Assembly (NCBI GenBank): GCA_022703505.1
Contig: JAKLDN010000006.1
Location: forward strand, 62,001 to 126,000
Length of the DNA stretch: 64,000 nt
Origin: Spirochaetota bacterium
GTDB lineage: Bacteria; Spirochaetota; Spirochaetia; Treponematales; UBA12059
Reading direction: 5' to 3'
Shown here: positions 39,833 to 55,429 of the stretch, one piece after another
Layout of the letters: every line of letters begins with the position of its first letter
Numbering within the stretch: position 1 is the stretch's first letter
Position numbers and translations under genes: made by a program
Notes under the pieces: model-generated
The model's database searches: none
Told to the model about the DNA's origin: nothing
Seen by the model: the letters and a program-made list of their open reading frames with translations, nothing else

Positions 39833-40179
39833 GGGGGTGCCCCGGTTTCGACTGGTGCGATTGGGGCATGGGCCGCAGGTGGAGCGCCGACCTCCTAACA
39901 TTCGGCAACCCTTTAACTGCCAACAACGACAGTTACGCTCTCGCCGCGTAAGCGGCGGAACGCGGGAACCGGCTGCGCCGCCTCGAGCGGCCGTCATTCC
40001 CGACACGATCGAGGCTGGTCGACTTTCGGGCCCGAACGAAAGTAGGACGAGAATAACCGGGATACGGGCCCGCCGCGCGCCGCGCAGCCAAGCGGGTCCC
40101 GACAATCCAATGCGCGGCTAAACCTGTAGAGGCTCCTGTCACGCGCATCAGGACGGGGGTTCGACTCCCCCCACCTCCA
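39833..40179 (+). ncRNA. ssrA: Transfer-messenger RNA (tmRNA)
   Basis: A 347-nt tmRNA that rescues stalled ribosomes. The 5' GGGGGTG pairs with the 3' CACCTCC as a tRNA-like acceptor (one G-U), the T arm is GGGGG-TTCGACT-CCCCC, and the 5' body has the CGGTTTCGACTGG signature. The reading frame at 39919-39951 encodes the tag ANNDSYALAA with a Gly-free ALAA end and a TAA stop; GCC is the resume codon. The discriminator A40179 is the last encoded base, and CCA is not encoded. A strong promoter and terminator flank it. Confidence 0.96.
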
Positions 40180-40182
40180 GTA

Positions 40183-40222
40183 ACGGCCGCCGCTCCACCA
40201 GGAACGGCGGCCGTACCATTTT
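40183..40222 (+). terminator. tmRNA terminator
   Basis: ACGGCCGCCG (40183-40192) pairs perfectly with CGGCGGCCGT (40205-40214), followed by ACCATTTT. Confidence 0.85.
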
Positions 40223-40224
40223 AA

Positions 40225-40362
40225 GTGGGGGAGTCGAACGGGCGTTCGCGACGGCGTAGCTCCGAGCCGGCGAGGAGCGGAGCCGGCCGCGCCCAAGGAC
40301 GGGCGCGGAGCGAACGCCCCGGCCCGCAGGGAGGCGCGATGATCGCGCCGACCGAAGGGTCG
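40225..40362. repeat. Hairpin cluster downstream of tmRNA
   Basis: GGGGGAGTCGAAC (40227-40239) is the complement of the tmRNA T arm. Then GGGCGTTCGC (40240-40249) pairs with GCGAACGCCC (40310-40319) around inner stems (GAGCCGGC/GGAGCCGGC and CGCGCCC/GGGCGCG). GGCGCGAT/ATCGCGCC (40333-40349) and CGACC/GGTCG (40349-40362) follow. No gene is seen in these 140 bp. Confidence 0.7.
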
Positions 40363-40437
40363 ACTCCCGCCACCTCCAGTAACCGCCGCAGTTCCAGCAT
40401 GGAAGGCGGCGGTTTTGTTTCAATGGGGGAGTCGAAC
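40359..40437 (+). repeat. Second copy of the tmRNA 3' end plus terminator
   Basis: Positions 40359-40382 repeat the last 20 bases of ssrA and the next three or four, with 22 of 24 identical. A second terminator follows, AACCGCCGC (40381-40389) with GCGGCGGTT (40406-40414) and TTTTGTTT, then another GGGGGAGTCGAAC (about 40425-40437), the complement of the T arm. This is the layout expected if an element inserted at the ssrA 3' end. Confidence 0.7.
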
Positions 40438-40470
40438 CGAGCCGACGATCCCGAGGCGGGGCGAATCTCG

Positions 40471-40500
40471 TTGCCATCCCCCCCGCCAAGGGCGTACAAT
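40471..40500 (+). promoter_or_regulatory. hsdM promoter
   Basis: TTGCCA (40471-40476), an 18-nt spacer and TACAAT (40495-40500), 31 nt before the hsdM ATG, which has GGAG 6 nt upstream. Confidence 0.65.
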
Positions 40501-40531
40501 AGCCTCCAAAATAGAATTCATGGAGTTCTAG

Positions 40532-42244
40532 ATGGCGTCTCCGCTTTCCAACCTGATCTGGTCCGTCGCGGATCTCCTTCGCGGGGATTATAAACAGGCC
40601 GACTACGGCAAGGTGATCCTTCCCTTCACCCTCCTGCGCCGCCTGGACTGCGTTCTTGAGCCCACCAAGGCGGCGGTGCTCGCCGAGGCCAAGGCGAAGA
40701 AGGGCGAGGGCGAGCTCGTCCTCGACCGGGCGCTCTGCAAGGCGTCCAAGCAGACCTTCTACAACACCTCCCAGCACACCCTGAACACGATGCTCTCGGA
40801 CCCGGACCAGCTCAAGCAGAACCTCCTCCACTACCTGTCGAGCTTCTCGACGAACGCCCAGGACGTGTTCACCCGCTACAAGTTCGCCGAGCAGGTGGAG
40901 TTCCTGGCCGCCAAGAACCTCCTGTACTTGGTGCTCCAGAGTTTCACGTCCATCGACCTCCGGCCCTCCGCCGTCTCGAACGCCGACATGGGACTCGTCT
41001 TCGAGGAGCTCATCCGGAAGTTCGCCGAGCTTTCGAACGAGACCGCCGGAGAGCACTTCACTCCCCGCGAGGTCATCCGCCTCATGGTCAACCTCCTGTT
41101 CTGCGAGGACGGCGAGGCGCTCACCAAGCCGGGGGTGATTCGCACCCTCTACGACTGCTGCGCGGGCACGGGGGGCATGCTCTCGGTCTCCGAAGAGCAC
41201 CTTAGGTCCATGAACCCGAAGGCGACCCTCAAGGTCTTCGGGCAGGAGCTCAACGAGGAGTCTTACGCCATCTGCAAGGCGGACATGCTCATCAAGGGCG
41301 CGGACGTAAAGAACATCATCCAAGGGAACACATTGAGCGAGGACGGACTTCCGGACAAGAAGTTCGACTACATGCTTACGAATCCGCCCTTCGGCGTAGA
41401 GTGGAAGAAGGTGCAGAAGGAGGTCGAGAAGGAGGCCGAGCACGGCTTCGCCGGCCGCTTCGGTCCCGGACTCCCCCGCATCAGTGACGGAAGCCTCCTC
41501 TTCCTCCTGCACCTCCTTTCGAAGATGCGTCCGGTGGACGAGGGCGGGAGCCGGATCGGCATCGTCCTCAACGGCTCGCCCCTCTTCACGGGCGGGGCCG
41601 GTTCCGGGGAGAGCGAGATCCGGAAGTACATCCTCGAGAACGATTTCCTGGAGGCCATCGTCGCCCTGCCCACGGACATGTTCTACAACACGGGGATAGC
41701 CACCTATGTGTGGATCCTGACCAACCACAAGGCGCCCGCGCGGAAGGGCAAGGTCCAGCTCATCAACGGCATCGACCTTTGGAAGAAGATGAAGAAGTCC
41801 CTGGGCTCCAAGCGCAAGGAACTGGGCGAGGAGCACATCGAGCTCCTCACCAAGACCTTCGGGAATTTCAAGGAAACGGACATCTGCAGGATCGTCCCCA
41901 ACGTCGAGTTCGGCTACTCGACCATCACCGTGGAGCGCCCGCTCAGGAACGAGAAGGGCGCGATCGAGACCGACCGGAAGGGGAATCCCAAACCCGATTC
42001 GAGCTTGCGCGACACCGAGAACGTGCCGCTCTCGGACGACATCGAAGCCTACTTCAAGCGGGAGGTCCTGCCGCACGTTCCCGACGCCTGGATCGACCAT
42101 GCCAAGACCAAGGTCGGCTACGAGATTCCCTTCACCCGATACTTTTACACCTACAAGCCTCCCCGTCCGCTCGAGGAGATCGACCGCGACCTCAAGGCGA
42201 AGACCGAGAAGATCATGAAGTTGCTGGGGGAGATTTCGGGATGA
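40532..42244 (+). CDS. hsdM: Type I restriction-modification methyltransferase subunit
   Basis: A 570-residue N6-adenine methyltransferase. The N-terminal HsdM domain ([37 protein letters not shown]) is followed by [17 protein letters not shown] motif I is [11 protein letters not shown] (about 207-217), the catalytic motif IV is TNPPFG (about 287-292), and [13 protein letters not shown] lies downstream. Two HsdM with one HsdS form the methyltransferase, and two HsdR make the full nuclease. It is first in a four-gene unit and overlaps hsdS by ATGA. Codon use is less GC-extreme than in the flanking chromosome. Confidence 0.95.
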
Positions 42245-43614
42245 AGTACAAGCCGTACCCCAAATACAAGGACTCCGGGGTCGTTTGGTTGGGGGAGATA
42301 CCTGAGGGGTGGGAGTGCAAGCGGCTCCGTTTCTTAGCAAAGCTGAATCCGTCAAAAAGCGCTATTACTGACAACCATCCTGATGAGGTTTCATTTCTTC
42401 CTATGGATAATATCGGAGATAATGGCACACTTCGGCTTGATACAATAAAAGCATGGGATGATGTCGAGTCTGGGTATACCTATTTTGCAGAGGGTGACGT
42501 TACTTACGCAATAATTACGCCTTGTTTCGAAAACGGAAAAGGCGCACAAATGCTTGGCCTTAAAAATAAGATGGGTTTTGGAACGACAGAATTATGTGTT
42601 CTACGTCCTAATCATAAATGCGATGGAAGGTGGCTCTGGTACACAACTATATCTACTCCATTCCGAAAAATTGGTGAATCATGGATGTATGGTGCTGGTG
42701 GACAAAAGAGAGTACCAGATGACTTCGCTCGAAATTTTGCTATAGGATTTCCGCCACTCTATATCCAACGCGCCATCGCCGCATTCCTCGACGCCGAGAC
42801 GGCCCGGATCGACGGCCTCATTAAAGACTACGAGGACCTGATCGAACTCTTGAAAGAGAAGCGGCAAGCCCTCATCTCCCGGGCGGTCACTCGCGGGCTC
42901 TCGGAGCTCGTGGGTCCCGACGATCCCGAGTTCGGCGAGTGGGCGAAGCCGGTGAAGTTCAAGGATTCCGGGGTTGAATGGATTGGGGAGATACCGGAGG
43001 GGTGGGAAGCAGGGGCTCTCAAGAAGTGGTTATCTGTCGTCGATTGCAAACACCTAACCGCTGAGTTTGTTGACTCTGGATATGCCTTGGTGAGCATCCG
43101 CGAGCTACAGGGCCATGTTGTGGACATTTCTGAGGCAAAGCATACAACCGTCGAGTATTTCAATAAATTGATAGACGGCGGTCGAGAGCTAAGAAAGAGG
43201 GACTTGGTTTTCTGCCGAAATGTCGGCGTCGGTCAAGTATCCATAGTCCCAGAAATGCCGAATGAATGTGCAATGGGACAAGACGTTTGCCGTTTAAGAC
43301 CTCTGGGGCCCAATACAGATTCGAGCTTTATACTTCTTGTATTGAAAAGCGCTTCAATTGTGTCCCAATTAGAATCAATAATGATTGGCGCAACATTCAA
43401 AAGGGTGAATGTAGAACAAATTCGAGAATTATGTGTTACATCTCCCGATATTGAAGAGCAACACGCCATCGCCTCATTCCTCGACAGAGAAACCTCCAAG
43501 ATAGATACCTTGATAGCTGACTCGGAATCCGCCATCGAACTCCTAAAGGAACATCGCTCCGCCCTCATCACCAACGCCGTCACCGGAAAAATCAATGTGG
43601 AGAATATCGCATGA
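42241..43614 (+). CDS. hsdS: Type I restriction-modification specificity subunit
   Basis: A 457-residue HsdS with two target-recognition domains in tandem. Each half opens with a conserved block ([18 protein letters not shown] and [18 protein letters not shown]) and closes with a coiled-coil spacer ([39 protein letters not shown] and [39 protein letters not shown]). Each half reads one part of a bipartite DNA site. The variable domains (about 42340-42760 and 43020-43470) are clearly AT-rich while the conserved parts are GC-rich, as expected from domain exchange. It overlaps both neighbours by ATGA. Confidence 0.95.
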
Positions 43615-45062
43615 CCGACAAGGAAGTTTTGGCCAAGATTCTGGAACTCTGCAAGTTGCCTTCCGAAATGGAATGGGTAGAGTTCAAGGAGAACCAAGCC
43701 AACCCGCAAGTGATCGGCGAGTATATTTCTGCGCTTTCCAACTCGGCATCCCTTCATAATCTCGAAGAAGCGTTCTTGATCTGGGGCGTCCGGGATGTTG
43801 ACCACGCCTTGGTCGGAACGGATTTTGATCCGTACCGTGCAAAACAAGGGAACCAAGACCTCATCATCTGGCTTCGAACCTCCACCAAGCCCGACGTGGA
43901 TACCCGTTTCCATGTAATCGAACATGAGGGTAAGCGACTGGTACTCCTGGTTGTTCCCGCTGCTCGAACAAGCCCAACCCGCTTCCGGGAACAAGCCTAC
44001 GTGAGAGTCGGCAACGTCAAGAAAGCCCTCTCGGATGTCCCGGCCATGGAGAAGAAGCTTTGGCAGAATCTCGCCGGGGAATGTTTTGAAGATGGGCTGG
44101 CTCTGCGGGGGCTTGATTCATCCAACGTATTGGCAAACCTCGATTACCCCTCCTATTTCGACCTTTTAGGGAAGGGATTGCCCGAAAACAAGTCGGCAAT
44201 AATCGAAGCTTTGTGCCAAGACGGATTAGTGGAAAAGGAACACCCAGGCACCTACGCGATCACCAATCTTGGAGCCGTGCTTCTGGCCAAAGATCTCGAT
44301 GGGTTCAAAAGCCTGAGCCGAAAAGCCCTTCGGGTGATCGTATACCGGGGCGGCAATCGGTCCGAGACGATCAAGGAACAAGTGGGCAGAAAAGGGTATG
44401 CGAGCGGTTTTTCAGGAGCCATCGAGTATATAAACAACCTTCTGCCGATGAACGAGATAATCGGACAAGCGTTCAGAAAGGAAGTGAAGCTGTTCCCTGA
44501 GATCGCCATACGGGAACTTATAGCCAACGCCCTCATACACCAGGACTTTTCGGTTGGCGGCGCAGGTCCAATGGTCGAAATTTTTTCCGACCGTATCGAA
44601 ATCACCAATCCGGGCGTCCCGCTCATTGATACCAAGAGATTCCTTGACCACAGCCCCCGATCCCGCAACGAGCATCTTGCCGTTTTCCTCCGGCGCGTCA
44701 ACATATGCGAGGAACGCGGCAGCGGTATCGACAAGGTGTTCATAGCCGTCGAATCCTTTCAACTTCCCCCGCCCGAGTTCCAAGTATTGGCCGATTCGAC
44801 CCGGATCGTCTTGTTCTGCGTGAGGGAGCACGCGGAAATGACGCCCCAGGAGCGGATGTGGGCCTGCTACTGGCATGCGGTATTGTTGTATGAGAGCGGG
44901 CGAAAACGAATGACCAATGCCACCTTAAGAAAACGACTTGGAATCGGCAAGGAAAACTACCCGATGGCATCAAAAGTCATCAATGACGCATTGAAAGGCG
45001 AGCTGATAAAACTTGCCGATCCTGATTTGCCTAAAAGCGGCTATGTGCCGTTCTGGGCATGA
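43611..45062 (+). CDS. AlbA_2 (Schlafen-type) / HATPase domain protein embedded in the R-M operon
   Basis: A 483-residue protein. The N-terminal AlbA_2 domain is EWVEFKENQANPQVIGEYISALSNSASL (about 20-47) with FLIWGVRD and RFREQAYVRVGN. A central helical part follows, then an ATP-binding HATPase_c_4-like segment (FPEIAIRELIANALIHQDFS..MVEIFSDRIEITNPG, about 290-335; RNEHLAVFLRRVNICEERGSGIDK) and a C-terminal winged-helix-like end. Such proteins occur as possible regulators or nucleic-acid-binding partners, often inside type I systems. It is translationally coupled to hsdS (ATGA), has a lower GC content than its neighbours, and is followed by a 151-bp gap before hsdR. Its function is unproven. 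Confidence 0.85.
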   Translation: MTDKEVLAKILELCKLPSEMEWVEFKENQANPQVIGEYISALSNSASLHNLEEAFLIWGVRDVDHALVGTDFDPYRAKQGNQDLIIWLRTSTKPDVDTRFHVIEHEGKRLVLLVVPAARTSPTRFREQAYVRVGNVKKALSDVPAMEKKLWQNLAGECFEDGLALRGLDSSNVLANLDYPSYFDLLGKGLPENKSAIIEALCQDGLVEKEHPGTYAITNLGAVLLAKDLDGFKSLSRKALRVIVYRGGNRSETIKEQVGRKGYASGFSGAIEYINNLLPMNEIIGQAFRKEVKLFPEIAIRELIANALIHQDFSVGGAGPMVEIFSDRIEITNPGVPLIDTKRFLDHSPRSRNEHLAVFLRRVNICEERGSGIDKVFIAVESFQLPPPEFQVLADSTRIVLFCVREHAEMTPQERMWACYWHAVLLYESGRKRMTNATLRKRLGIGKENYPMASKVINDALKGELIKLADPDLPKSGYVPFWA

Positions 45063-45213
45063 AAGATGTAAGCGGGATGTAAGTGAACACCAACCAGAAC
45101 CCAACCGGTTGCGTACCAGATTGCAAGATGTTCGAAAACGACACCATATGTTGTGCCGATATACGTACTCGACATGTATTCCAAAAGTATTCCCCTACCT
45201 CTGAGGCAACCAG

Positions 45214-48200
45214 ATGACGAACATCCATCTTGAAAAAGAGTTCGAGACCGACATCGTGGCCCATCTCATGTCCAACGGCTGGCTCGAGGGTACCTCGGAC
45301 GGCTACGACATCGGCCGCGCCCTCTACCCCGAGGACGCCCTCGCTTGGGTCCAGGTCGCCCACAAGGACGCGTGGGACAGGCTTGAAAGCCAGCACGGCT
45401 CCAAAGCGGGTGAGCAGTTCCTGAGCTGCCTCTGGTCCAATCTCGACCAGCTCGGCACCCTCCATGTCCTTCGTCACGGCTTCAAGATTCCCGGCGCGGG
45501 CGGCATCTACTTCTCGATGATGCAGGCCAAGCCTCGGAGCAACCGCAATCCCGACTCGACGAAGCTCTTCGAGGCGAATGCCTTGCGGGTGGTCCGGCAG
45601 GTCTACTACTCCGCCAACAACAAGAACTCCATCGACCTCGTGCTCTTCGTGAACGGGATACCCGTGGCGACGCTCGAACTCAAGACCGAGAGCACCCAGT
45701 CGGTGCATGCCGCCATCAAGCAGTACAAGAAGGACCGTCTTCCCAAGGACCCCGGCGCGAACCGCCTGGAGCCGCTTCTTCAGTTCAAGAGCCGCTGTGT
45801 CGTCCATTTCGCCGTCTCCACGGAGGAAGTCCACATGACGACGAAGCTCGCGGGGGACGCGACCGACTTCCTCCCCTTCAACAAGGGCGACAACGAGGGG
45901 AAGGGAAATCCCGTCAACCCCAACGGCTGTCGCACCGCGTACCTCTGGGAGAATGTGCTCGAGCGGGACAATTGGATCTACATCCTGAGCGACTTCGTGC
46001 ACCTGGAGCGCACGGAAAGGACGGACGCCTCCGGCAGGAAGGCGCTTTTGGAACGGATGATCTTCCCCCGCTACCACCAGTGGGACGCGGTGACGGAGCT
46101 CGTGAAGATTTCCCGGATCGAGAAGGCGGGGCACCGCTACCTCATCCAGCATTCGGCGGGCTCGGGCAAGTCGAACTCGATTGCATGGCTCGCCCACCAG
46201 CTTTCTGGTCTCCACGACGAAAACGACGACTCCGTGTACGACGCGGTGCTCGTCATAACCGATCGGACGGTCCTGGACAAGCAGCTCCGGGACAACCTCT
46301 TCCAGTTCCAGAAGACCCAGGGCGTCGTAGAGGCGGTCACGAACGACGAGGGGGCCAAGTCCAACAAGCTCCGGGACGCCCTCCTCGGCGGAAAGCGCAT
46401 CATCGTGGTGACCATCCAGACCTTCAAGCCCCTCCTGGACAAGATCGGGAGCGACGAGGAGCTCAAGAAGCGCAATTTCGTGGTGATCATCGACGAGGCG
46501 CACGCGTCCCAGACCGGCGGGGCCGCGGGTGCCCTGAAGAAGGTCCTCGCGAAAGAGGCCTACGACAAGGACGAGGTGTCCGCCGAGGACCTCATCCTGG
46601 GCGACCTGGAGGCCCGCAAGCAGCCCTTGAACGTCTCCTACTACGCCTTCACCGCGACCCCCAAGTCGAAGACGATGGAGCTCTTCGGGACCCTCAATTC
46701 CGACGGCGTCCGGGTACCGTTCAAGACCTACTCCATGCGGCAGGCGATCGAGGAAGGCTTCATCCTCGACCCCCTGCAAAACTACCTGTCCTACAAGGTC
46801 GCCTGGAAACTCGTCCATGAGGGCGCAGAGCACAGCCAGGACGAGGTCCTCAAGAACAAGGCGACGAAGGCGCTCACAAAATGGGTCCGCCTCCATGAGC
46901 ACAACATCGCCCAGAAGGTGAAGATCATCGTGGAGCACTACCGCGAGCACGTCGCGTGGCGGCTGGGCGGTCAAGCCAAGGCCATGGTGGTCACGAACAG
47001 CCGCGAGGAAGTGATCCGCTACAAGCTGGCGATCGACGCCTACATCCGGGAGAACAGGTATCCCATCGGGACGCTGGTGGCGTTCTCGGGGGAAATCGAG
47101 ATAAAAGATCTCGCGGACCTTCCCTTCAGCGAGAGCAACATGAACCCCGGCCTCCGGCGCCGGGACATCAAGGACGCCTTCGACACGGGGGAGTTCCAGA
47201 TTCTCCTCGTAGCCAACAAATATCAGACGGGCTTCGACCAGCCGAAGCTCGTCGCCATGTACGTGGACAAGAAGCTATCCGGGGTCGCCACCGTCCAGAC
47301 CCTCTCGCGGCTCAATCGAACCTATCCCGGCAAGGACTGGACCGCCGTCCTGGACTTCGTGAACAACCCGGATTCCATCCTCGAGGACTTCCAGCTGTTC
47401 TACCGCTCCGCGAGCCTACCGCAGGGGACCGACCCGAACCTGCTCTACAAGCTCGAAACCAAGCTCGACGCGGCGGGCATCTACCTTGAGTCGGAGGTCG
47501 AGGCATTCGCCAATTGGTACTGGGACCCCAAGCGCTCCAAGAACAACCATTTCCAGCTTCAGAAATACCTTCAACCGCCCGTCCAGCGCCTCAAGGAGCG
47601 GTATGTCGCAGCGATTGAAGGGAAGGACAACGAGACCAAGAACGCGATCGAGATCTTCGTGAAGGACGTGGGCAGCTTCTGTAAACTCTTCGAGTTCATA
47701 ACCCAGATTTTCGACTACGGCGACGACATCGGGCTGGAGATGCGCTACTCCTACTTCAAGGAGCTGCTGCCCCTCATGCTCGGAATTCTCCGGGACGGAC
47801 GAGACTCAAGCGACATCGATCTATCCGGGGTGCGCCTGTCCCACTACGGGATCCGCCCCAAGGACGCGGGAAGACTTCAGCTCGATCCGGCCGGCGTCAG
47901 CGAGCTCCCGCCTGCCTACGGGGACATCGGGTCCGGAACGAGCCGGGATCCGGAGACCATCAAGCTCCTCGAGCTCATCGAACAGCTCAACCTAATCTTC
48001 GAGGGGGACCTCTCCGATTCCGACCTCGTGAACTACGCGTTCGCCGTCCGGGACAAGCTCCTGGAGAACGAGCTTTTAAGAACCCAGGCCCGGAACAACA
48101 CCCGGAAACAGTTCGACGAGTCCGACGACCTGCACGAGGCCATCCTCGACGCGGTGGACGAGCAGGCCAAGGTGAACTCCGACCTCGCCCGGCAGGTCAT

Positions 48201-48288
48201 GAGCGACGCCCGCAAGCGCGACGAGTTCATGAAGATCATCCGGGAACTGGCGTACTGGGGCTTCCTGGGCGAGGAGAAGGCGGGGTGA
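45214..48288 (+). CDS. hsdR: Type I restriction endonuclease subunit R
   Basis: A 1024-residue HsdR. The N-terminal nuclease domain has the D..E-x-K motif (IDLVLFVNGIPVATLELKTE, about 143-162). The SF2 translocase has Walker A HSAGSGKSNSIAWLAHQL (about 310-327), DEAH in VVIIDEAHASQTGG (about 423-436), YYAFTATPKSKTMELFG, and helicase motifs V/VI (LLVANKYQTGFDQPKLVAMYVDK, TVQTLSRLNRTYPGK). A long C-terminal helical region binds the methylase core. It cuts DNA away from unmethylated sites after ATP-driven translocation. CTGAGGCAACCAG provides a ribosome site. No frameshift is seen. Confidence 0.95.
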   Translation: MTNIHLEKEFETDIVAHLMSNGWLEGTSDGYDIGRALYPEDALAWVQVAHKDAWDRLESQHGSKAGEQFLSCLWSNLDQLGTLHVLRHGFKIPGAGGIYFSMMQAKPRSNRNPDSTKLFEANALRVVRQVYYSANNKNSIDLVLFVNGIPVATLELKTESTQSVHAAIKQYKKDRLPKDPGANRLEPLLQFKSRCVVHFAVSTEEVHMTTKLAGDATDFLPFNKGDNEGKGNPVNPNGCRTAYLWENVLERDNWIYILSDFVHLERTERTDASGRKALLERMIFPRYHQWDAVTELVKISRIEKAGHRYLIQHSAGSGKSNSIAWLAHQLSGLHDENDDSVYDAVLVITDRTVLDKQLRDNLFQFQKTQGVVEAVTNDEGAKSNKLRDALLGGKRIIVVTIQTFKPLLDKIGSDEELKKRNFVVIIDEAHASQTGGAAGALKKVLAKEAYDKDEVSAEDLILGDLEARKQPLNVSYYAFTATPKSKTMELFGTLNSDGVRVPFKTYSMRQAIEEGFILDPLQNYLSYKVAWKLVHEGAEHSQDEVLKNKATKALTKWVRLHEHNIAQKVKIIVEHYREHVAWRLGGQAKAMVVTNSREEVIRYKLAIDAYIRENRYPIGTLVAFSGEIEIKDLADLPFSESNMNPGLRRRDIKDAFDTGEFQILLVANKYQTGFDQPKLVAMYVDKKLSGVATVQTLSRLNRTYPGKDWTAVLDFVNNPDSILEDFQLFYRSASLPQGTDPNLLYKLETKLDAAGIYLESEVEAFANWYWDPKRSKNNHFQLQKYLQPPVQRLKERYVAAIEGKDNETKNAIEIFVKDVGSFCKLFEFITQIFDYGDDIGLEMRYSYFKELLPLMLGILRDGRDSSDIDLSGVRLSHYGIRPKDAGRLQLDPAGVSELPPAYGDIGSGTSRDPETIKLLELIEQLNLIFEGDLSDSDLVNYAFAVRDKLLENELLRTQARNNTRKQFDESDDLHEAILDAVDEQAKVNSDLARQVMSDARKRDEFMKIIRELAYWGFLGEEKAG

Positions 48289-48330
48289 GCATTCTTCAAC
48301 CCAAGACCCGCCCATGACCAACGGGCTGGA

Positions 48331-49128
48331 TCAGATTTTCTCCCACAGGGCCGCGAATCCGGCCGGGTCTTCCAGGGGGGCCGCGTGGCCTCCGTCGACC
48401 TCGACCCGTCGGGCGCCGGGAATCCCCTCGGCCAGGAAACGGCTGGCCCGGCGGTTGTCGCTCCAGTCCCACAGGCCGTCGACCACCAGGGCGGGCGCCT
48501 TCACCTCGGCGAGCCGGGACAGGGCCGGGGATTCCGGGGCTTGGGGATCGGAAAGGAAAAAGGTCCCCCTCTCGACGAATATGCGGTTCATGACGGAAGC
48601 CTGTCGACGGGCTTCCCGGATTTCCGGGGAGAACCGAGTCTTGTCCCTGTCGGGGCCGTCGAACCAGATCCTCAGCTGGAGTTCGGAGGCGGCCGCCGTG
48701 TCCCCCGCCTGGACCGCGGCGAACATCTCCATCAGGAGCGGAGGCATGTCGCCCTGGGGCTGCCAGCCCGACGGCGAGGCGTTGACCAGGGTTAGGGACA
48801 GCACCCGGTCCGGGTGCTCCAGGGTGAAGTCGAGGGCCTGCTGGCCGCCGTTGGAACAGCCCACGAGATGGAAGGTCTCGAGGCCCAGGGCGTCGACTAC
48901 GGCGGTCAGTTCTTTGCGGCGGACCACGGGGACCGCGGCGGGGTCGGAACGGCCGAACCCCAGCTTGTCGTAGGATACCGTCCGATGGCGGGCCGCCAGC
49001 CGGGCTCGGACGCCGTCCCACATCCGCCCGTCCAAAAAGTCGGCATGCACGAACACGATGGCGGGGCCGGTCCCTTCGGATTCGGCGTACATCCGGCCGT
49101 GGCCGGGAAGGTCGAGATACTTGTTCAT
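48331..49128 (-). CDS. Alpha/beta hydrolase
   Basis: A 265-residue hydrolase: FVHADFLDGRMWDGVRARL (oxyanion region), SYDKLGFGRSD, nucleophile elbow LVGCSNGG (Ser in GCSNGG, about 101), Asp in VDGLWDWSD, and His in VEVDGGHAAPLEDP. The class resembles 3-oxoadipate enol-lactonase or esterase-type enzymes; the substrate is unknown. The ATG at 49128 follows AAGGAG. It is divergent from a WYL-domain regulator, with a 27-bp palindrome between, so it is probably the regulator's target. Confidence 0.85.
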   Translation of the reverse strand: MNKYLDLPGHGRMYAESEGTGPAIVFVHADFLDGRMWDGVRARLAARHRTVSYDKLGFGRSDPAAVPVVRRKELTAVVDALGLETFHLVGCSNGGQQALDFTLEHPDRVLSLTLVNASPSGWQPQGDMPPLLMEMFAAVQAGDTAAASELQLRIWFDGPDRDKTRFSPEIREARRQASVMNRIFVERGTFFLSDPQAPESPALSRLAEVKAPALVVDGLWDWSDNRRASRFLAEGIPGARRVEVDGGHAAPLEDPAGFAALWEKI

Positions 49129-49150
49129 GGTGACTCCTTGCGGGTATATT

Positions 49151-49184
49151 CCACCCGGGTGGGTGACATCTTGTGTCACCCACC
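49151..49184. promoter_or_regulatory. Operator palindromes between hydrolase and WYL regulator
   Basis: GGTGGGTGACA (49158-49168) and TGTCACCCACC (49174-49184) form a perfect 11-bp inverted repeat with a 5-nt centre. It overlaps a second palindrome, CCACCCGGGTGG (49151-49162). It lies 30 nt from both start codons, in the right place to control both genes. Confidence 0.75.
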
Positions 49185-49213
49185 TTCGACATTTTTCAAA
49201 AAAAGAGGATAGC

Positions 49214-50170
49214 GTGCGAGCAGATCGACTGATTTCCCTGATCCTGGCCCTGCAGGACCGGGGAAAGACCACCGCGGCGCATCTGGCCGCCGCCCTGGGG
49301 GTGAGCCGAAGGACCATCCTTCGGGACATCGACGCTCTGTCCCTCTCGGGAGTGCCCGTGCTGGCCGAAGGCGGACTCGGCGGCGGGATCTGGCTGGATC
49401 CGGCGTACCGCACGTCCCTGACGGGCATGAAGGAGGCCGAGCTGCGGACCCTGCTGGCGGCCGGAGACGCCCGCCTGCTCGACGACCTGGGCTGGGGACA
49501 GACCTTTCGGGAGACCCAGGCCAAGCTGAGGGCCTCGGTGCCGCGCCGGTTCGAACCCGGGGTGGAGCACATGCGGCAGCGCCTAATCATCGACTCCCGG
49601 TGGTGGTGGCACGAGGCCGGGGAACCGAACCTCGAGGTTCTGCAGGCCGCCGTGTGGGGAGACCGGGTGATCGAGGGCGAATACCAGACTTGGGAAGGCG
49701 GCGCCAAGGCCGTCCGGCTCGAGGCCTACGGACTGGCCGCCAAGGCGGGCCTCTGGTACTTCGTGGGGCGCCGGGCAGGCGAGTGGCGTGTTTATCGTGT
49801 GTCCCGGTTCGAGGTTGTCCGAGCGTCGGGGGCCTTCGCTCGGGATCCGAAGTTCGACCTCCCGGCCTGGTGGTCCGCCCACGCCGCCGAATTCGCGGGC
49901 GAACTGGCGGGGTTTCGGTTCTCCCTGGGCCTTCCCGAGGATCGGGTGCGCTACCTGCGGGGCATCGCCCCGGGACGCGTCGACGTGGTCGGACCCTGGG
50001 AGAGGCCCGGCTGGGTCCGGGCCGGCGTGGGGCTCGACTCCTCGCTCTACGCCGAACTCGTCGTCTTGGGCCTCGGACGCCGGTGCGTGATCCTCGACAA
50101 CCCGGAGCTGGCCGACGCCGTGGTCCGGAGATGCCGGGAGGGGCTGGCCGCCCACGAAGGATTGACGTAA
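49214..50170 (+). CDS. YafY/DeoR-type HTH regulator with WYL domain
   Basis: A 318-residue transcription regulator. The N-terminal winged HTH is MRADRLISLILALQDRGKTTAAHLAAALGVSRRTILRDIDALSLSGVPVLAEGGLGGGIWL (1-61). The C-terminal WYL part has VRLEAYGLAAKAGLWYFVGRRAGEWRVYRVSRFEVV with the variant LWYFVG in place of WYL. WYL proteins sense ligands such as nucleic-acid fragments or small molecules. GTG start with AGAGGATAGC upstream. It is divergent from the hydrolase and likely autoregulated through the intervening palindrome. Confidence 0.9.
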   Translation: MRADRLISLILALQDRGKTTAAHLAAALGVSRRTILRDIDALSLSGVPVLAEGGLGGGIWLDPAYRTSLTGMKEAELRTLLAAGDARLLDDLGWGQTFRETQAKLRASVPRRFEPGVEHMRQRLIIDSRWWWHEAGEPNLEVLQAAVWGDRVIEGEYQTWEGGAKAVRLEAYGLAAKAGLWYFVGRRAGEWRVYRVSRFEVVRASGAFARDPKFDLPAWWSAHAAEFAGELAGFRFSLGLPEDRVRYLRGIAPGRVDVVGPWERPGWVRAGVGLDSSLYAELVVLGLGRRCVILDNPELADAVVRRCREGLAAHEGLT

Positions 50171-50239
50171 CCTGCGCGAAGCATTAGTCGACGTTCCCCC
50201 TGTCCCATTGTTCCGGGCTCCGGGCCGGTGTATCCTCCC

Positions 50240-52429
50240 TCACTCCTCCCTCAAGAACAGAACGGAGCTCGATTGCTCCGCGGCCCTGCCGGTAGAGCCG
50301 GACCCGGCCCCGACGCTGGCAAGGTACGCGAAGTCCCGGACCCGGGCGGGGTCGATCTCCGCCGCTCGTTCGAAGATGGTCCGTGCCTGGGAGAAATCGG
50401 ACAAGGCGTTGTAGGCCAGGGACATGTTCACCAGGATCATCTGGGCCGAGGTGCTCCGGCCCTTGCCCTGGGTGTCCAAGGCGCGGACGGCGCCCTGCCA
50501 GGAAGCGAGCGCCCTGCGGTAGTCCTTCTGCAGGTATGCCAGGTTTCCCAGGTTGACCTGGGCGCTGGTGAAGGAGGCATCGATCCTCAGGGCCCGGGTG
50601 AACGCGGACTCGGCTTCCTTCGTCCGTCCGAACTTCGCGTAGGCGATGCCCAGGGAGTTCCACTCCCGGACGTCGTTGCCTTTGGCCGTCTGGGCCGCGA
50701 GTTCCGTGAGGGCGAAGTCGCCCAGCCGGATGAGCTCCGGGCGGAACGCGGCCGTCAGGTCCGAACGGGAACCGTACTGGAGGCCCAGGTCGGTCTCGCG
50801 CAGGCCGACCGGACGGTACACGGTCTGGGCCGCGGCGGTCGTGTAGAAACCCCGCTTGTCCGGATTGGTGTCATAGAGCTTCCATAACTCCGCGCCGCGG
50901 CGCCAGGCGTCCGCGAAGGGCTGCTTGCCGACCAGGGTGATCTCGACGGGTATCCAGAGCCGATCGCCCTGCACGATGGTCATGGAGCGATCGGGATGGA
51001 TCTCCCGGAAATCCCGGGCGGGTATTTTCGTGTTCACCGCCAGGTAGATATGCCCCGGCACCGTGATGAAGCCGGTCTCGTGTCCCATCGATTCCAGGAT
51101 GCTGGCGAAGAGCACGGTGAGGTCGTCGCAGTCCCCGGTTCCCCGCGCCAGGGTGGCCCGCGCCAGGCTTACGGAGTCGACCGATATCGCTCCCGCCTGG
51201 GCCCGCACGAAGGGCGAGCTGGGGTCCGCCTGATAGGTAAGCCCGAAGGACCCCAGGGACGAGTACACCTGGGCCGCGGCCTGCATCGCCTGGTTGAGCT
51301 GGGGAAGGGTTTCAGCTCTCAGGGAAGTGGCCACGAAGCTGCCGTAATTCCGGAGTGCCGAGTCCGCGGGGGTGATGAAGGCTCCCACCTTGCGGTCGTC
51401 GTCCCAGGTGATCGCGGTGCGATCGAGCAGCTCGTAGGACACGGGCAGGCGCTGTTCCACGGGTCGGCCGCGATACCGGTAGCGGACGATGACCTCCCCG
51501 GCCAGGGGTACGGTGCCTTCCGTGCGGAATACCTCCTGGTTGAAGGCCGCCAGGAGTCCGATCTCCGTACGGCCGCGCGGTGCCAGGGAGTTTAGGGTCG
51601 CGCTGGGGGTCGGGGCGTCCATGTAGCCGGGCTGGAAGAACGATACCTCGATATCCCGGAGTTCGGTGTTCTCCCCGTTCACGAGGGCGACCTGGGCGAA
51701 GGGGCGGGTGGAATAATAGCTCTGCATGGCCGCGAACGCCGGAGCGAGTTTCTGGGTCTCCAGGCGCAGGGCGCGGACGGCCGCCGCGGCCGCGTCCGGG
51801 TCCTGGCCGAAGCGCCAGGAGACCGCGAAGCCGAGGCCGAAGTACAGGCCGTCGAAATCGTCCAGGAGGCCGAGGCTTCGGGAATACCGGATCGCGGGTC
51901 GCAGGTCCACGGACAGGTTGTACGAAGGGACCAGCCCGATGCGGGCTCCGGCCTCGGCGAGGTATCCGAGCTCGCCGACCGTCGTGCCCGGGGAGAGGTT
52001 CGGGAAGGCGGTCTGGAAGATCCCGCCCCCCGCGTCGATCCCGATCTCGAAATTACGGGAGAACCGTGTGGAGTAGCCCAGGCCCAGGGCCCCCCACATC
52101 TGGCTGTGGTCGAATTGCGATCCTCCCGCGCTGCCGGCCTGGAGCACCGATAGGGTCCCCGCGCGGACGAAGGGCTGGACGGTCGACAGATTGGTCAGGG
52201 GCACGCGCAGCTCCGCTCCGATCTCCCGGAACGAGAATCCGGAAGGGAAGCCTCCGAAGGCCTGCAGATCCCGGTACATCGCCCCCACCGATACGGGGAA
52301 GCTGTACCGCTCGTTGAGTTCCGCCATGCTCTCCTGGGGAAATACGGGAAAGATCGTCCCGAGCGCCAGCACCGCGGCTATCGTGGAGCGCGCTCTCGGT
52401 CTTCCTTCTGCCCTGCGATATCCGATCAT
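50240..52429 (-). CDS. Outer-membrane barrel / transglutaminase-like / TPR protein
   Basis: A 729-residue exported protein. After a signal peptide (about 1-32, AAVLALGTIFPVFPQ) comes a barrel-like region of alternating strands (about 33-190: FVRAGTLSVLQ.. WGALGLGYSTRFSRNFEIGIDAGGGIF.. LYFGLGFAVSWRF). A beta-sandwich region follows, then a transglutaminase-like core with GTGDCDDLTVLFASILESMGHETGFITVPGHIYLAVNT (Cys, His; about 427-465). C-terminal TPRs complete it (EWNSLGIAYAKFGRTKEAESAFTRALRIDASFTSAQVNLGNLAYLQKDYRRALASWQGAV). I chose the ATG at 52429 because GGAGG lies 5 nt before it and the signal peptide begins there. It lies 14 nt after the LVIVD lipoprotein gene. Confidence 0.85.
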   Translation of the reverse strand: MIGYRRAEGRPRARSTIAAVLALGTIFPVFPQESMAELNERYSFPVSVGAMYRDLQAFGGFPSGFSFREIGAELRVPLTNLSTVQPFVRAGTLSVLQAGSAGGSQFDHSQMWGALGLGYSTRFSRNFEIGIDAGGGIFQTAFPNLSPGTTVGELGYLAEAGARIGLVPSYNLSVDLRPAIRYSRSLGLLDDFDGLYFGLGFAVSWRFGQDPDAAAAAVRALRLETQKLAPAFAAMQSYYSTRPFAQVALVNGENTELRDIEVSFFQPGYMDAPTPSATLNSLAPRGRTEIGLLAAFNQEVFRTEGTVPLAGEVIVRYRYRGRPVEQRLPVSYELLDRTAITWDDDRKVGAFITPADSALRNYGSFVATSLRAETLPQLNQAMQAAAQVYSSLGSFGLTYQADPSSPFVRAQAGAISVDSVSLARATLARGTGDCDDLTVLFASILESMGHETGFITVPGHIYLAVNTKIPARDFREIHPDRSMTIVQGDRLWIPVEITLVGKQPFADAWRRGAELWKLYDTNPDKRGFYTTAAAQTVYRPVGLRETDLGLQYGSRSDLTAAFRPELIRLGDFALTELAAQTAKGNDVREWNSLGIAYAKFGRTKEAESAFTRALRIDASFTSAQVNLGNLAYLQKDYRRALASWQGAVRALDTQGKGRSTSAQMILVNMSLAYNALSDFSQARTIFERAAEIDPARVRDFAYLASVGAGSGSTGRAAEQSSSVLFLREE

Positions 52430-52443
52430 GACCGCCTCCTGAT

Positions 52444-55302
52444 TCATGGCCTGAGACTCACGGTGTAGAGCTTGCTTCCGCCGTCCGCGGCATACAGATA
52501 GTCCCCGTAGATGGTCAAGGAACGAGGTTCGAAACCGGCCGCCTGGACGGTTCCGACCTGGAGCGGCGCAAGGGGGTTGCTGATCTCCCAGATTCCCAGC
52601 CCCGCGGCCCCGTAGGCTACGTAGGCGTAGCTTCCCCGGACCGCGAGATCGAAGGCGGGGACCGCGGAAGGCTGCCTCCACGCGTGGGCCGTTCCGCCGG
52701 CGCTCCAGGCACGGGGGTTGGAGGCCTCGTAGACCAGGAGCCCGCCCAGGGTGTCGGCGGCCAGGACGTAATCGCCGTAGACGGCCACGGCCGCGGTCTC
52801 GCCCGTGCTCCAGGGGGACCCGTACCCGGCCAGGGCGGAGGGGAACTCCGGGTCCTGGACGGAGACTGCACGGACCCCCGCGGCCTCGTTGGCCACGAAG
52901 GCGTAGGAGCCGGCCAGGGCTATGCGCCGGGCCTCCCGGTTGGCGCCGGGGGAGGGCTGGGTGGTGACGGCCGCCACGACGGTCAGGAAGCCCTGGGACG
53001 CCCGGGACAGATCCACGACGTTGAGCCAGGAGTTCGAGGTTCCCATCAGGGCGTAGTTCCCGAACAGGGCCACGGACCACGCGTTGCCTCCCTGGGTGCT
53101 GACGTACCAGGGAGGAAGGACCTGCGGGGCATGGGTCGGGGCTCCCGGCGTCTGGAGCGACCACTGCATCACCCCGCTCCGCTCGGCGGCGATGTAGGAA
53201 CGCTCCCCCGCGAAGGAGAAGTCATAGGGAGTGTAGCCCCCGGCGTCGGTGGCCACCCGGGCGGGTACCGCGGGGGCTTCCAGGCTGAATACGGACGAGG
53301 TCCAGTCCGCCGAGTATTCCGACACGTACAGTCTTCCCCCGAACGCGGCGAGCCGGGCGGCGGAACGCAGGCCGGTCTGGGTATTCACCAGGACGGCCGC
53401 GGACGGATCGTTGGCGCCGTAGATACGGAACGGATAATCCCGGCCCGTGGACACGAAGGAATATCCGTCTCCCACGGCCACGTGCTCGGTGGAGCCCGGG
53501 ACGTTCCGGGTGAAGGCGGTTCGCAGGGACGAGGGATTCGAGACATCCACCACCGAATACCCGTAGATGTTCATGGCCGCGAATACTCGGTTCCCGGACA
53601 CGGTCAATTCTCCGACGAGCACGGAGGACCCGCCCGGTTCAACCGCGGATAGCGCGGAGGGCGAGGCCGGGTTCGAGGTCTGCCAGGCCCGGACGAAGCT
53701 GCCCTGGGCGGCGTACAGGACCGTGCCGCTCGCCGTGAAGGCGACCGAACCCGCCCCGCTTATGGAGGAACTGTTGCGTGTGACCGTCGGGACGGCGTCG
53801 GTTCCCGTGACCGTATAGACGGCGGTCGCGCTGTTTCCGGCCACCGCCACGAGACGGGTTCCGGAACGGTTCTGCACCGTCACGTCGTAGGCCTGGCCCA
53901 GGAGGGCCGCGTCCCGAGCCTGAATGCGCACGGCCGGAGCCGACTTGTTCGTGACGTCGACCACGTAGAGCCCGCTGTTGAATCCCGCCACGAAGGCCAG
54001 GTTTCCCAGGACGGCCACGCTTTCGGGTTGAAGAACGAACCCCGAGGGATCCAGGTCCGCATAGCCCGCGATCGAGGGCATGCTCGGATTTCCTATGTCT
54101 ACGATGAACAGGGCGATCGCCCATGCCGTTCCGGTCCACCGGTAGCCCCCGAGATAGGCGTACGGTTCATCCTCGTCCAGTACGACGGATTGGACCTGGG
54201 TCAGCGCGAGGAATCCCGCCTGCGTAGGCAGTCCGGGGTTCCGTACGTCCAAGACCCGTAACCCTCCGTAAAAGTCCGCGATGTACAGGTACCCGTCCTT
54301 GTAGGCCGAGCTCTGGGAATTTTCCACCCCGTCGAAGACGGCCACCGGGGCGTCCTGGCGGGACGACACGGAGTCGGAGGCCGCCTCGATGTACTCGCTC
54401 ACGACCGTGCTTCGGGATGTCGGCTTGACGGCGTAGTAGTATCTCCGGCCCCCGGAGGCGCTGGCGTCGAAATACCCCGAGCCCACGACCGGCCCCGAGA
54501 CGTCCTCCCACGGGCCCGCCGGCGACGCGGACCGGAGCACGGTATAGGAGGGTATGGACTCGAAGGTCCGCCAGGAGAGGGCTATGCCGTCGTAGCGCTC
54601 GGTCGCCCGGGGCAGAAGATGCATCCGGGACAGGGGAACGGAGCGAACGACCTGGGAGTAGTTCACGCGGCCGCCCGGGCCGTCGGCGGCCAGGAGCAGG
54701 CTGTAGACGGAACCGTTGGCAAGCTGGTTCAAGGTGTGCGGTGAGGTGACGTCGTCGAAATAGGTGGAGATCCCCGGGTCCGGAGTCTTGCTGGAGGGTT
54801 CGACGTAGAGCCGGTACCGGGTCGCGCCCGGCACCGGGTCCCAGGTCAAGGTCACCGACCGGCTGTCCTCCTCCGACTGGAAGCTCGGGATGTCGTTCCC
54901 CGGGTATACCAGCGGAAGCCGGTATTCCGCCGCGTTTCCGTTCCAGTCCACGGCTTTCAGGAGGACGGTTATGTTCGTGCGCAGGTCGTTGGGCTCCTCG
55001 ATCACGAAGGCCCCGGAGGGCGATACGGTCGCGGACTTTTCGGCGGTGTACGAAAGTATCTCGTAGCTCAGGGACGATACCCGTCCGGAGCGGCCTCCGC
55101 CGGCCCCGTCCAGTACGACCCCCTCGATCCGGATGACCCTGGAATAGCTCGAATACTCTGAAGGCGTCGTCACGAGGATCGACGGGGATTCCGCATCCTT
55201 GGCGCTGAGCACGATGTCGTCCGTGATGGGATTCGGGCAGCCGGTCAGGATTACGACCAGGACGGCGGCAGCGAGGGTGAAAGGCCGCGAAGCTCGGGAC
55301 AT
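52444..55302 (-). CDS. Large LVIVD-repeat surface lipoprotein
   Basis: A 952-residue lipoprotein: signal MSRASRPFTLAAAVLVVILTGC with the lipobox Cys at about 22. Fibronectin type III-like domains (about 40-330: SRSVTLTWDPVPGATRYRLYVEPSS, GIALSWRTFESIPSYTVLRSA) precede a seven-bladed propeller-type series of LVIVD repeats (GGLRVLDVRNPGLPTQAGFLAL, IALFIVDIGNPSMPSIAGYADL, SGLYVVDVTNKSAP, YGYSVVDVSNPSSL, GIWEISNPLAPLQVGTV). It is probably anchored outside the cell and mediates binding. GGAGGAGG precedes the ATG. It is first of the two-gene operon with the barrel/transglutaminase protein. Confidence 0.9.
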   Translation of the reverse strand: MSRASRPFTLAAAVLVVILTGCPNPITDDIVLSAKDAESPSILVTTPSEYSSYSRVIRIEGVVLDGAGGGRSGRVSSLSYEILSYTAEKSATVSPSGAFVIEEPNDLRTNITVLLKAVDWNGNAAEYRLPLVYPGNDIPSFQSEEDSRSVTLTWDPVPGATRYRLYVEPSSKTPDPGISTYFDDVTSPHTLNQLANGSVYSLLLAADGPGGRVNYSQVVRSVPLSRMHLLPRATERYDGIALSWRTFESIPSYTVLRSASPAGPWEDVSGPVVGSGYFDASASGGRRYYYAVKPTSRSTVVSEYIEAASDSVSSRQDAPVAVFDGVENSQSSAYKDGYLYIADFYGGLRVLDVRNPGLPTQAGFLALTQVQSVVLDEDEPYAYLGGYRWTGTAWAIALFIVDIGNPSMPSIAGYADLDPSGFVLQPESVAVLGNLAFVAGFNSGLYVVDVTNKSAPAVRIQARDAALLGQAYDVTVQNRSGTRLVAVAGNSATAVYTVTGTDAVPTVTRNSSSISGAGSVAFTASGTVLYAAQGSFVRAWQTSNPASPSALSAVEPGGSSVLVGELTVSGNRVFAAMNIYGYSVVDVSNPSSLRTAFTRNVPGSTEHVAVGDGYSFVSTGRDYPFRIYGANDPSAAVLVNTQTGLRSAARLAAFGGRLYVSEYSADWTSSVFSLEAPAVPARVATDAGGYTPYDFSFAGERSYIAAERSGVMQWSLQTPGAPTHAPQVLPPWYVSTQGGNAWSVALFGNYALMGTSNSWLNVVDLSRASQGFLTVVAAVTTQPSPGANREARRIALAGSYAFVANEAAGVRAVSVQDPEFPSALAGYGSPWSTGETAAVAVYGDYVLAADTLGGLLVYEASNPRAWSAGGTAHAWRQPSAVPAFDLAVRGSYAYVAYGAAGLGIWEISNPLAPLQVGTVQAAGFEPRSLTIYGDYLYAADGGSKLYTVSLRP

Positions 55303-55337
55303 GTCCCACCTCCTCCGGGAGAAGAGCAGATGGAGCT

Positions 55338-55366
55338 ATTATATTACTTTTTTTGTCATTTATAAA
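55338..55366 (-). promoter_or_regulatory. Promoter of the LVIVD lipoprotein operon
   Basis: A perfect TATAAT (55338-55343) with TTTATA (55361-55366) at 17 nt, in an AT-rich stretch; a 35-nt leader carries GGAGGAGG. Confidence 0.65.
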
Positions 55367-55429
55367 GGACGCAAGGAAAATTATCGGAGCGAAAGAAATC
55401 CGGACACGTCCGCCCGGCCGTGTCGAACC

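Follow-up and report, generated by a model that had tools for sequence, protein, structure and literature searches.

Why should the 3′ end of a tmRNA gene be repeated just downstream of itself, directly in front of a type I restriction system? The question is raised by a 64,000-nucleotide stretch of spirochaete DNA (hereafter the window), for which an initial annotation, noting that tmRNA 3′ ends are common integrase targets, had proposed that the second copy might be the attachment site of a present or lost island. The features of the tmRNA locus are as follows:

39833..40179, + strand: tmRNA gene ssrA (ARAGORN and Rfam; tag ANNDSYALAA)
40163-40179, + strand: X, tmRNA nt 57 to the end, within ssrA
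40183..40214, + strand: terminator hairpin T1, between X and X′ (inverted repeat I6, then a T run)
40227..40239, + strand: X′, inverted T-arm half, left strand of closing stem P1 (13/13 complementary to 40159-40171)
40237..40360, + strand: structured core of unit 1, with two arms and loops CAAGGACG and ATGAT (covariance model R1, 28.8 bits, E 0.002; family covariation)
40361..40378, + strand: X2, second copy of the tmRNA 3′ end, right strand of P1
40382..40415, + strand: terminator T2, duplicated together with X2 (family D1)
40425..40438, + strand: X′ of a second, incomplete unit (inverted repeats I3 and I7)
40434..40458, + strand: truncated start of a second core (identical to the core start in sister genome G002)

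The order at the tmRNA is X, terminator, X′, core, X2, terminator, X′ and truncated second core. As the initial annotation had observed, the ssrA end recurs 199 nt downstream, within a direct repeat that spans 73 nt at 77% identity and includes the terminator (40158-40230 against 40357-40429); the tmRNA end itself (40163-40179 against 40362-40378) differs by one mismatch. Each copy does have its own terminator and is followed on its 3′ side by GGGGGAGTCGAAC (40227-40239 and 40425-40438), of which 13-14 nt are complementary to the T-arm half, and the suggestion that the nested palindromes belong to the same element as the second copy was correct. The truncated second core at 40434-40458 had been missed. 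The region 40150-40440 has a predicted folding energy of -184.6 kcal/mol (z = -9.0 relative to shuffled sequences). In the assembly of the sister genome G001, the end of one contig (C120, L052) and the start of another (C106, L051) break precisely at the tmRNA array and have a 58-nt end in common, and draft assemblies may therefore undercount these repeats.

The DNA that follows the array contains these features:

40459..50225 (approximate), no strand: variable island with type I restriction-modification, a neighbour of the repeat and not part of it (absent in G001; Pfam and PADLOC)
40532-42244: hsdM
42241-43614: hsdS
43611-45062: AlbA_2/Schlafen-type gene with a RecG-C-terminal-like part, between hsdS and hsdR
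45214-48288: hsdR
49058-50170: WYL regulator

The neighbouring type I system is indeed complete (HsdM, HsdS, and HsdR), and GC there dips to 0.49-0.53. In G001, which has no island, the end of the array is joined directly to the homologue of window positions 50216-55368, so that the island is either a variable insertion at the broken end of the array or a loss in G001. The part of the earlier proposal that holds is the variability of the DNA after the repeat, about 9.8 kb of which is missing in G001; the part that fails is the interpretation of the second copy as an integrase attachment site.

According to that interpretation, a phage or island integrase used ssrA as its target, and the restriction island is the inserted element. 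Integrase duplications of tRNA and tmRNA 3′ ends likewise consist of a direct 3′-end copy from the T-loop beside variable DNA, and at this locus the repeat does span the T-loop to the tmRNA end and is followed by the variable island of about 9.8 kb. However, no third copy of the repeat was found in the window or in the next stretch, to about 16 kb past the window end, and none of the island proteins scanned proved to be an integrase. The same genome also carries a genuine integrase island at tRNA-Met (tyrosine integrase confirmed), and its attachment copies are longer, at about 40 nt or more, and reach the anticodon arm; the tRNA-Leu(gag) locus has a similar layout. In contrast, the tmRNA copy has an abrupt start at T-loop nt 56/57, a boundary common to the 132 units measured. 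Units such as this one add an inverted copy and a conserved core to the direct copy, form arrays of ~150-250-nt units and have no integrase of their own. Finally, the arrangement recurs behind many tRNA genes away from ssrA, an outcome that the initial annotation had itself listed as evidence against its reading. On the grounds of boundaries, recurrence and the missing distal copy, a conventional attachment site was rejected; it is not the best reading of the second copy, and we consider it highly improbable.

The tmRNA repeat is instead one unit of a spirochaete-wide family of structured repeats tethered to tRNA and tmRNA genes. A unit of about 200 nt consists of X (beginning at T-loop nt 56/57), a terminator or spacer, X′ (the inverted T-arm half), a structured core of about 120 nt, and X again. 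Within the window's genome, at least 13 further units stand behind tRNA genes, including those for Ala, Val, Lys, Ser, Pro, Cys, Met, Glu, and Leu among others, and X′ and X are always derived from the local tRNA. Such matches are nearly absent upstream of tRNAs, except at one tRNA-Ser cluster. In relatives, units are present behind tmRNA and tRNAs, frequently as tandem arrays.

X′ and the next X form the closing stem P1, the sequence of which is that of the local tRNA: all 10 of 10 pairs are formed in 39/85 units, vs. about 2% when the flanks of other units are used. Across 132 units, the direct copy agrees with the tRNA at only 0.05-0.11 at nt 54-55, rises to 0.81 and 0.95 at nt 56/57, reaches 0.98 at nt 73, and falls from 0.7 to 0.5 in the trailer, while the inverted copy matches tRNA nt 54-64 and ends at nt 53; nt 57-64 and 61-71 served as anchors, and this profile is informative at its edges only. 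An interpretation of P1 as an acceptor-plus-T-stem minihelix for RNase P was dropped, because the conservation of X′ ends at nt 64-65. The layout of the units implies that arrays grow by duplication of the tRNA 3′ end together with its trailer. The trailer is often copied along with the tRNA end, and a terminator is not obligatory. For instance, the spacer behind tRNA-Arg in the complete genome G034 is a few nucleotides long and holds no terminator, and many other units follow their tRNA without an intervening terminator; in the window's family, one often intervenes.

A few variants of this arrangement were seen. In the window's genome, several units (L256:5888, L119:1003, L098:1702(-), L081:1691(-), and L102:1179) carry a second palindrome of about 60 nt (CCGTCGTGCGCGATAGCGC...CGGAGCGAAGCGACGTATG) inside their GGA loops; its insertion point is always just past GGATG or the equivalent. 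Behind tRNA-Thr(ggt) (L089), the acceptor-side tail CGATCGGGGGCT occurs twice downstream with no core in both sister species, which is perhaps a related or decayed arrangement. Other long paired hairpins, of the GCTTTTTGGACAG type, are located at L107:644-739(-) and, behind tRNA-Ser and tRNA-Pro, at L082/L078; the L107 type belongs to a family different from the core, and one such hairpin gives a sub-threshold Rfam match to TD-2.

The core itself is a two-armed fold with conserved purine internal loops and two hairpins bearing CA(N)GGANG loops, as established by covariation and loop counts. A hand alignment of 11 cores contains 89 doubly changed cells vs. 29 in shuffles, with a covariation score of 0.53 vs. 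at most 0.08 for slid versions. The same 11 cores, structure-aligned after removal of the tRNA-derived stem, were used to build a covariance model. Among 50 later matches the count was 428 vs. 143 cells, in an alignment that is fitted to the model and biased in its favour. In the window's genome the model recovers 13 copies, and it detects the core in 37/58 related genomes (E ≤ 0.01); in a phylum sample of 393 genomes, copies are confined to the same class.

Linkage to tRNA genes is close. For G034 the model lists 19 matches. Of the 18 with E ≤ 0.01, 17 belong to arrays that stand immediately behind a tRNA on the same strand; the remaining listed match is weak, with an E of 0.13, and is about 6.5 kb from the tRNA it follows. 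Counted over all 19, 18 are linked to a tRNA. One unit, at G034:3458956, is away from a tRNA and unexplained. The exceptions in the window's genome (C12:69345, C12:80030, and C1:212221) have the stems of tRNA-Met or tRNA-Leu(gag) and are parted from those tRNAs by inserted DNA. At tRNA-Met, two stretches of about 29 and 10 kb displaced the local unit (L249:2682-3980; C12:40600, C12:69345, C12:80030), and at tRNA-Leu(gag) a stretch of about 7 kb did so (C1:219416 to C1:212221). The tyrosine integrase gene adjoins tRNA-Met, and 40-nt copies of the tRNA end lie at the far sides of the displacing stretches.

An independent DNA pattern, which covers the left arm and middle of the core and includes neither GGA hairpin loop, was run against 84,980 named genomes. 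Spirochaetes account for 61/62 records matched, mostly Treponema or Spirochaetaceae MAGs; the lone Pseudomonas match has no tRNA, loop motif or second stem strand, and thereby amounts to an unplanned negative control. The pattern found 70 units, and 61 of the 65 that could be evaluated have a tRNA or tmRNA on the same strand no more than 278 nt upstream, with 19 kinds of these genes represented. The covariance model, a search by tRNA alone and the DNA pattern agree on the family. Rfam holds no family matching the unit, a relaxed E-value giving chance or neighbouring matches only, and no description was found in the open-licence literature on Treponema repeats, tRNA-linked palindromes or spirochaete CsrA sponges. 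The repeat family is real, conserved and, as far as Rfam and this literature show, undescribed.

Between sister species, most of the bearing tRNAs are common to both, and core type and copy number differ. The nearest neighbour of a core is in the same genome in 16 cases vs. 7 expected, and cores of the same tRNA are slightly more alike across genomes; strong within-genome amplification was rejected, as the excess is only modest. The units might have no function and simply result from tandem duplication, and from copying primed by hairpins, where tRNA genes are heavily transcribed; the variable length of the arrays and the decay of copies into trailer fit such an origin. However, the loops, internal loops and architecture are kept across a bacterial class while the stems change by compensatory pairs, and this class-wide conservation argues against a neutral by-product, which we regard as very unlikely.

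The conserved loops point to a possible function. The loops that read CA(N)GGANG are those of hairpins P4 and P6, and the P3 loop is without the motif. The motif is found in the sense vs. the antisense orientation in 72/74 vs. 2/74 cores delimited by their tRNA-derived repeats (a set in which many loci had initially been retrieved with the model), in 13/14 vs. 0/14 cores of the window's own genome fetched by tRNA alone, and in 67/70 vs. 0/70 pattern-found units. The CsrB repeat is CAGGA(U/A/C)G, presented in hairpin loops, and the CsrA site selected by SELEX is RUACARGGAUGU (PMC7652899). CA(N)GGANG is the CsrB repeat motif and fits the SELEX site. As in decoy RNAs of this type, several GGA motifs stand in hairpin loops of the units, although the Csr/Rsm families in Rfam gave no CsrB or RsmZ match. 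CsrB/CsrC and RsmX/Y/Z, the decoys of CsrA and RsmA, are likewise built of repeated hairpins with CAGGA(U/A/C)G or CANGGANG loops and have several sites per array. In contrast to them, the units are tethered to tRNA or tmRNA, have a complex two-armed core and a closing stem copied from the tRNA, and their binding of CsrA is putative.

Our best guess, put forward tentatively, is that the units are putative CsrA-titrating RNAs attached to tRNA transcripts. We infer how they may be transcribed, bind CsrA and be copied. A unit would be made as part of the tRNA or tmRNA transcript, extending it at the 3′ end; where no terminator is present transcription would simply continue, and where there is one it would have to read through. 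The many units that lack an intervening terminator favour this reading, and the terminators frequent in the window's family count against it. The resulting RNA would sequester CsrA in the manner of CsrB or RsmZ, and CsrA activity would in that way follow the transcription of tRNAs. P1, for its part, would be renewed at each tRNA through copying of the tRNA end, both inverted and direct, in the DNA. The E. coli 3′ETS-leuZ is a tRNA trailer that acts as an RNA sponge by pairing with sRNAs. If the units are RNA decoys, they would likewise be regulatory RNAs from the 3′ side of a tRNA transcript, differing from 3′ETS-leuZ in being long, structured and repeated.

The distribution of csrA is consistent with the decoy idea. 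In family f4 (30 genomes), the 11 genomes that have units all carry csrA, and the other 19 have neither. On the tmRNA tree, this pattern represents a single co-loss, and the co-occurrence was rejected as independent proof. Counting against the idea, five fragmented MAGs of family f1 have units and gave no csrA match.

The base pairs of the stems bear on another reading. Only 2% of the pairs in the units are G-U, compared with 8% for tRNA stems and 10% for hairpins resembling terminators at these loci (2.0% vs. 7.8% for units and tRNA stems in the named-genome set), and the G-A mismatches stay at fixed places. This scarcity of G-U pairs, unusual for a structure at the RNA level, would point to constraint, or templating, of the DNA itself, and it is the main reason why the RNA decoy is put forward only tentatively and why an element of folded DNA has to be taken seriously. 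In the latter case, the tRNA-sense strand would fold as single-stranded DNA, a recombinase or template switching would insert it at the tRNA T-loop while copying the tRNA end both ways, and CA(N)GGANG would be the recognition loops of the enzyme and not CsrA sites. Along with the fourfold G-U deficit, a P1 that is an inverted copy of the target, the sharp T-loop boundaries, copied trailers resembling long target duplications, the turnover between sister species and some within-genome clustering all fit an element of this kind. On the other hand, no machinery has been identified, host reverse transcriptase is absent in key genomes, sister species retain units at the same tRNAs, and units off tRNAs were seen only where an island intervenes, apart from the unexplained one in G034. 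Weighing these points, we regard a folded-DNA element as a strong rival, though somewhat less likely than the decoy.

Known elements of this sort were considered. Integron attC sites and IS200/REP ends fold as single-stranded DNA. Like the units, attC and REP/IS200-type hairpins are strand-specific folded sites with stems of Watson-Crick pairs only, and occur in arrays; unlike theirs, the closing stem of the units is tRNA-specific and not conserved, and linkage to tRNAs is strict. Integron attC has a conserved R/L-box closing stem, whereas that of the units differs per locus and equals the local tRNA. REP/RAYT elements are scattered across intergenic space, unlike the tRNA-linked units. A retroelement using a host reverse transcriptase was rejected, as RVT_1 (PF00078) was not found in the unit-bearing genomes G000, G031, G034, and G046. 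We know of no enzyme matching the units. An unlikely union of the CsrA decoy and folded DNA would be a new class of element that targets tRNAs in the form of folded DNA. It would read its target and renew its closing stem at each insertion through inverted copying of the tRNA end, while decoys carried on its transcript would couple CsrA to the synthesis of tRNA.

A class-wide family with about 10-20 copies in many genomes has seemingly gone unrecorded, even in complete Treponema genomes, and it serves as a warning that 3′-end duplicates of tRNA and tmRNA genes are not always phage attachment sites. If the units act as DNA, they would represent an element whose end stem is copied from its target, and we know of no described counterpart. 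In Leptospira, no csrB or csrC homologues are known, FliW has been suggested as the antagonist, and one candidate ncRNA has been noted in L. biflexa (PMC8668096). FliW has been proposed as the antagonist of CsrA in spirochaetes; binding of CsrA by the units would mean that these bacteria possess an RNA branch of the Csr system, wired to the transcription of tRNA and tmRNA.
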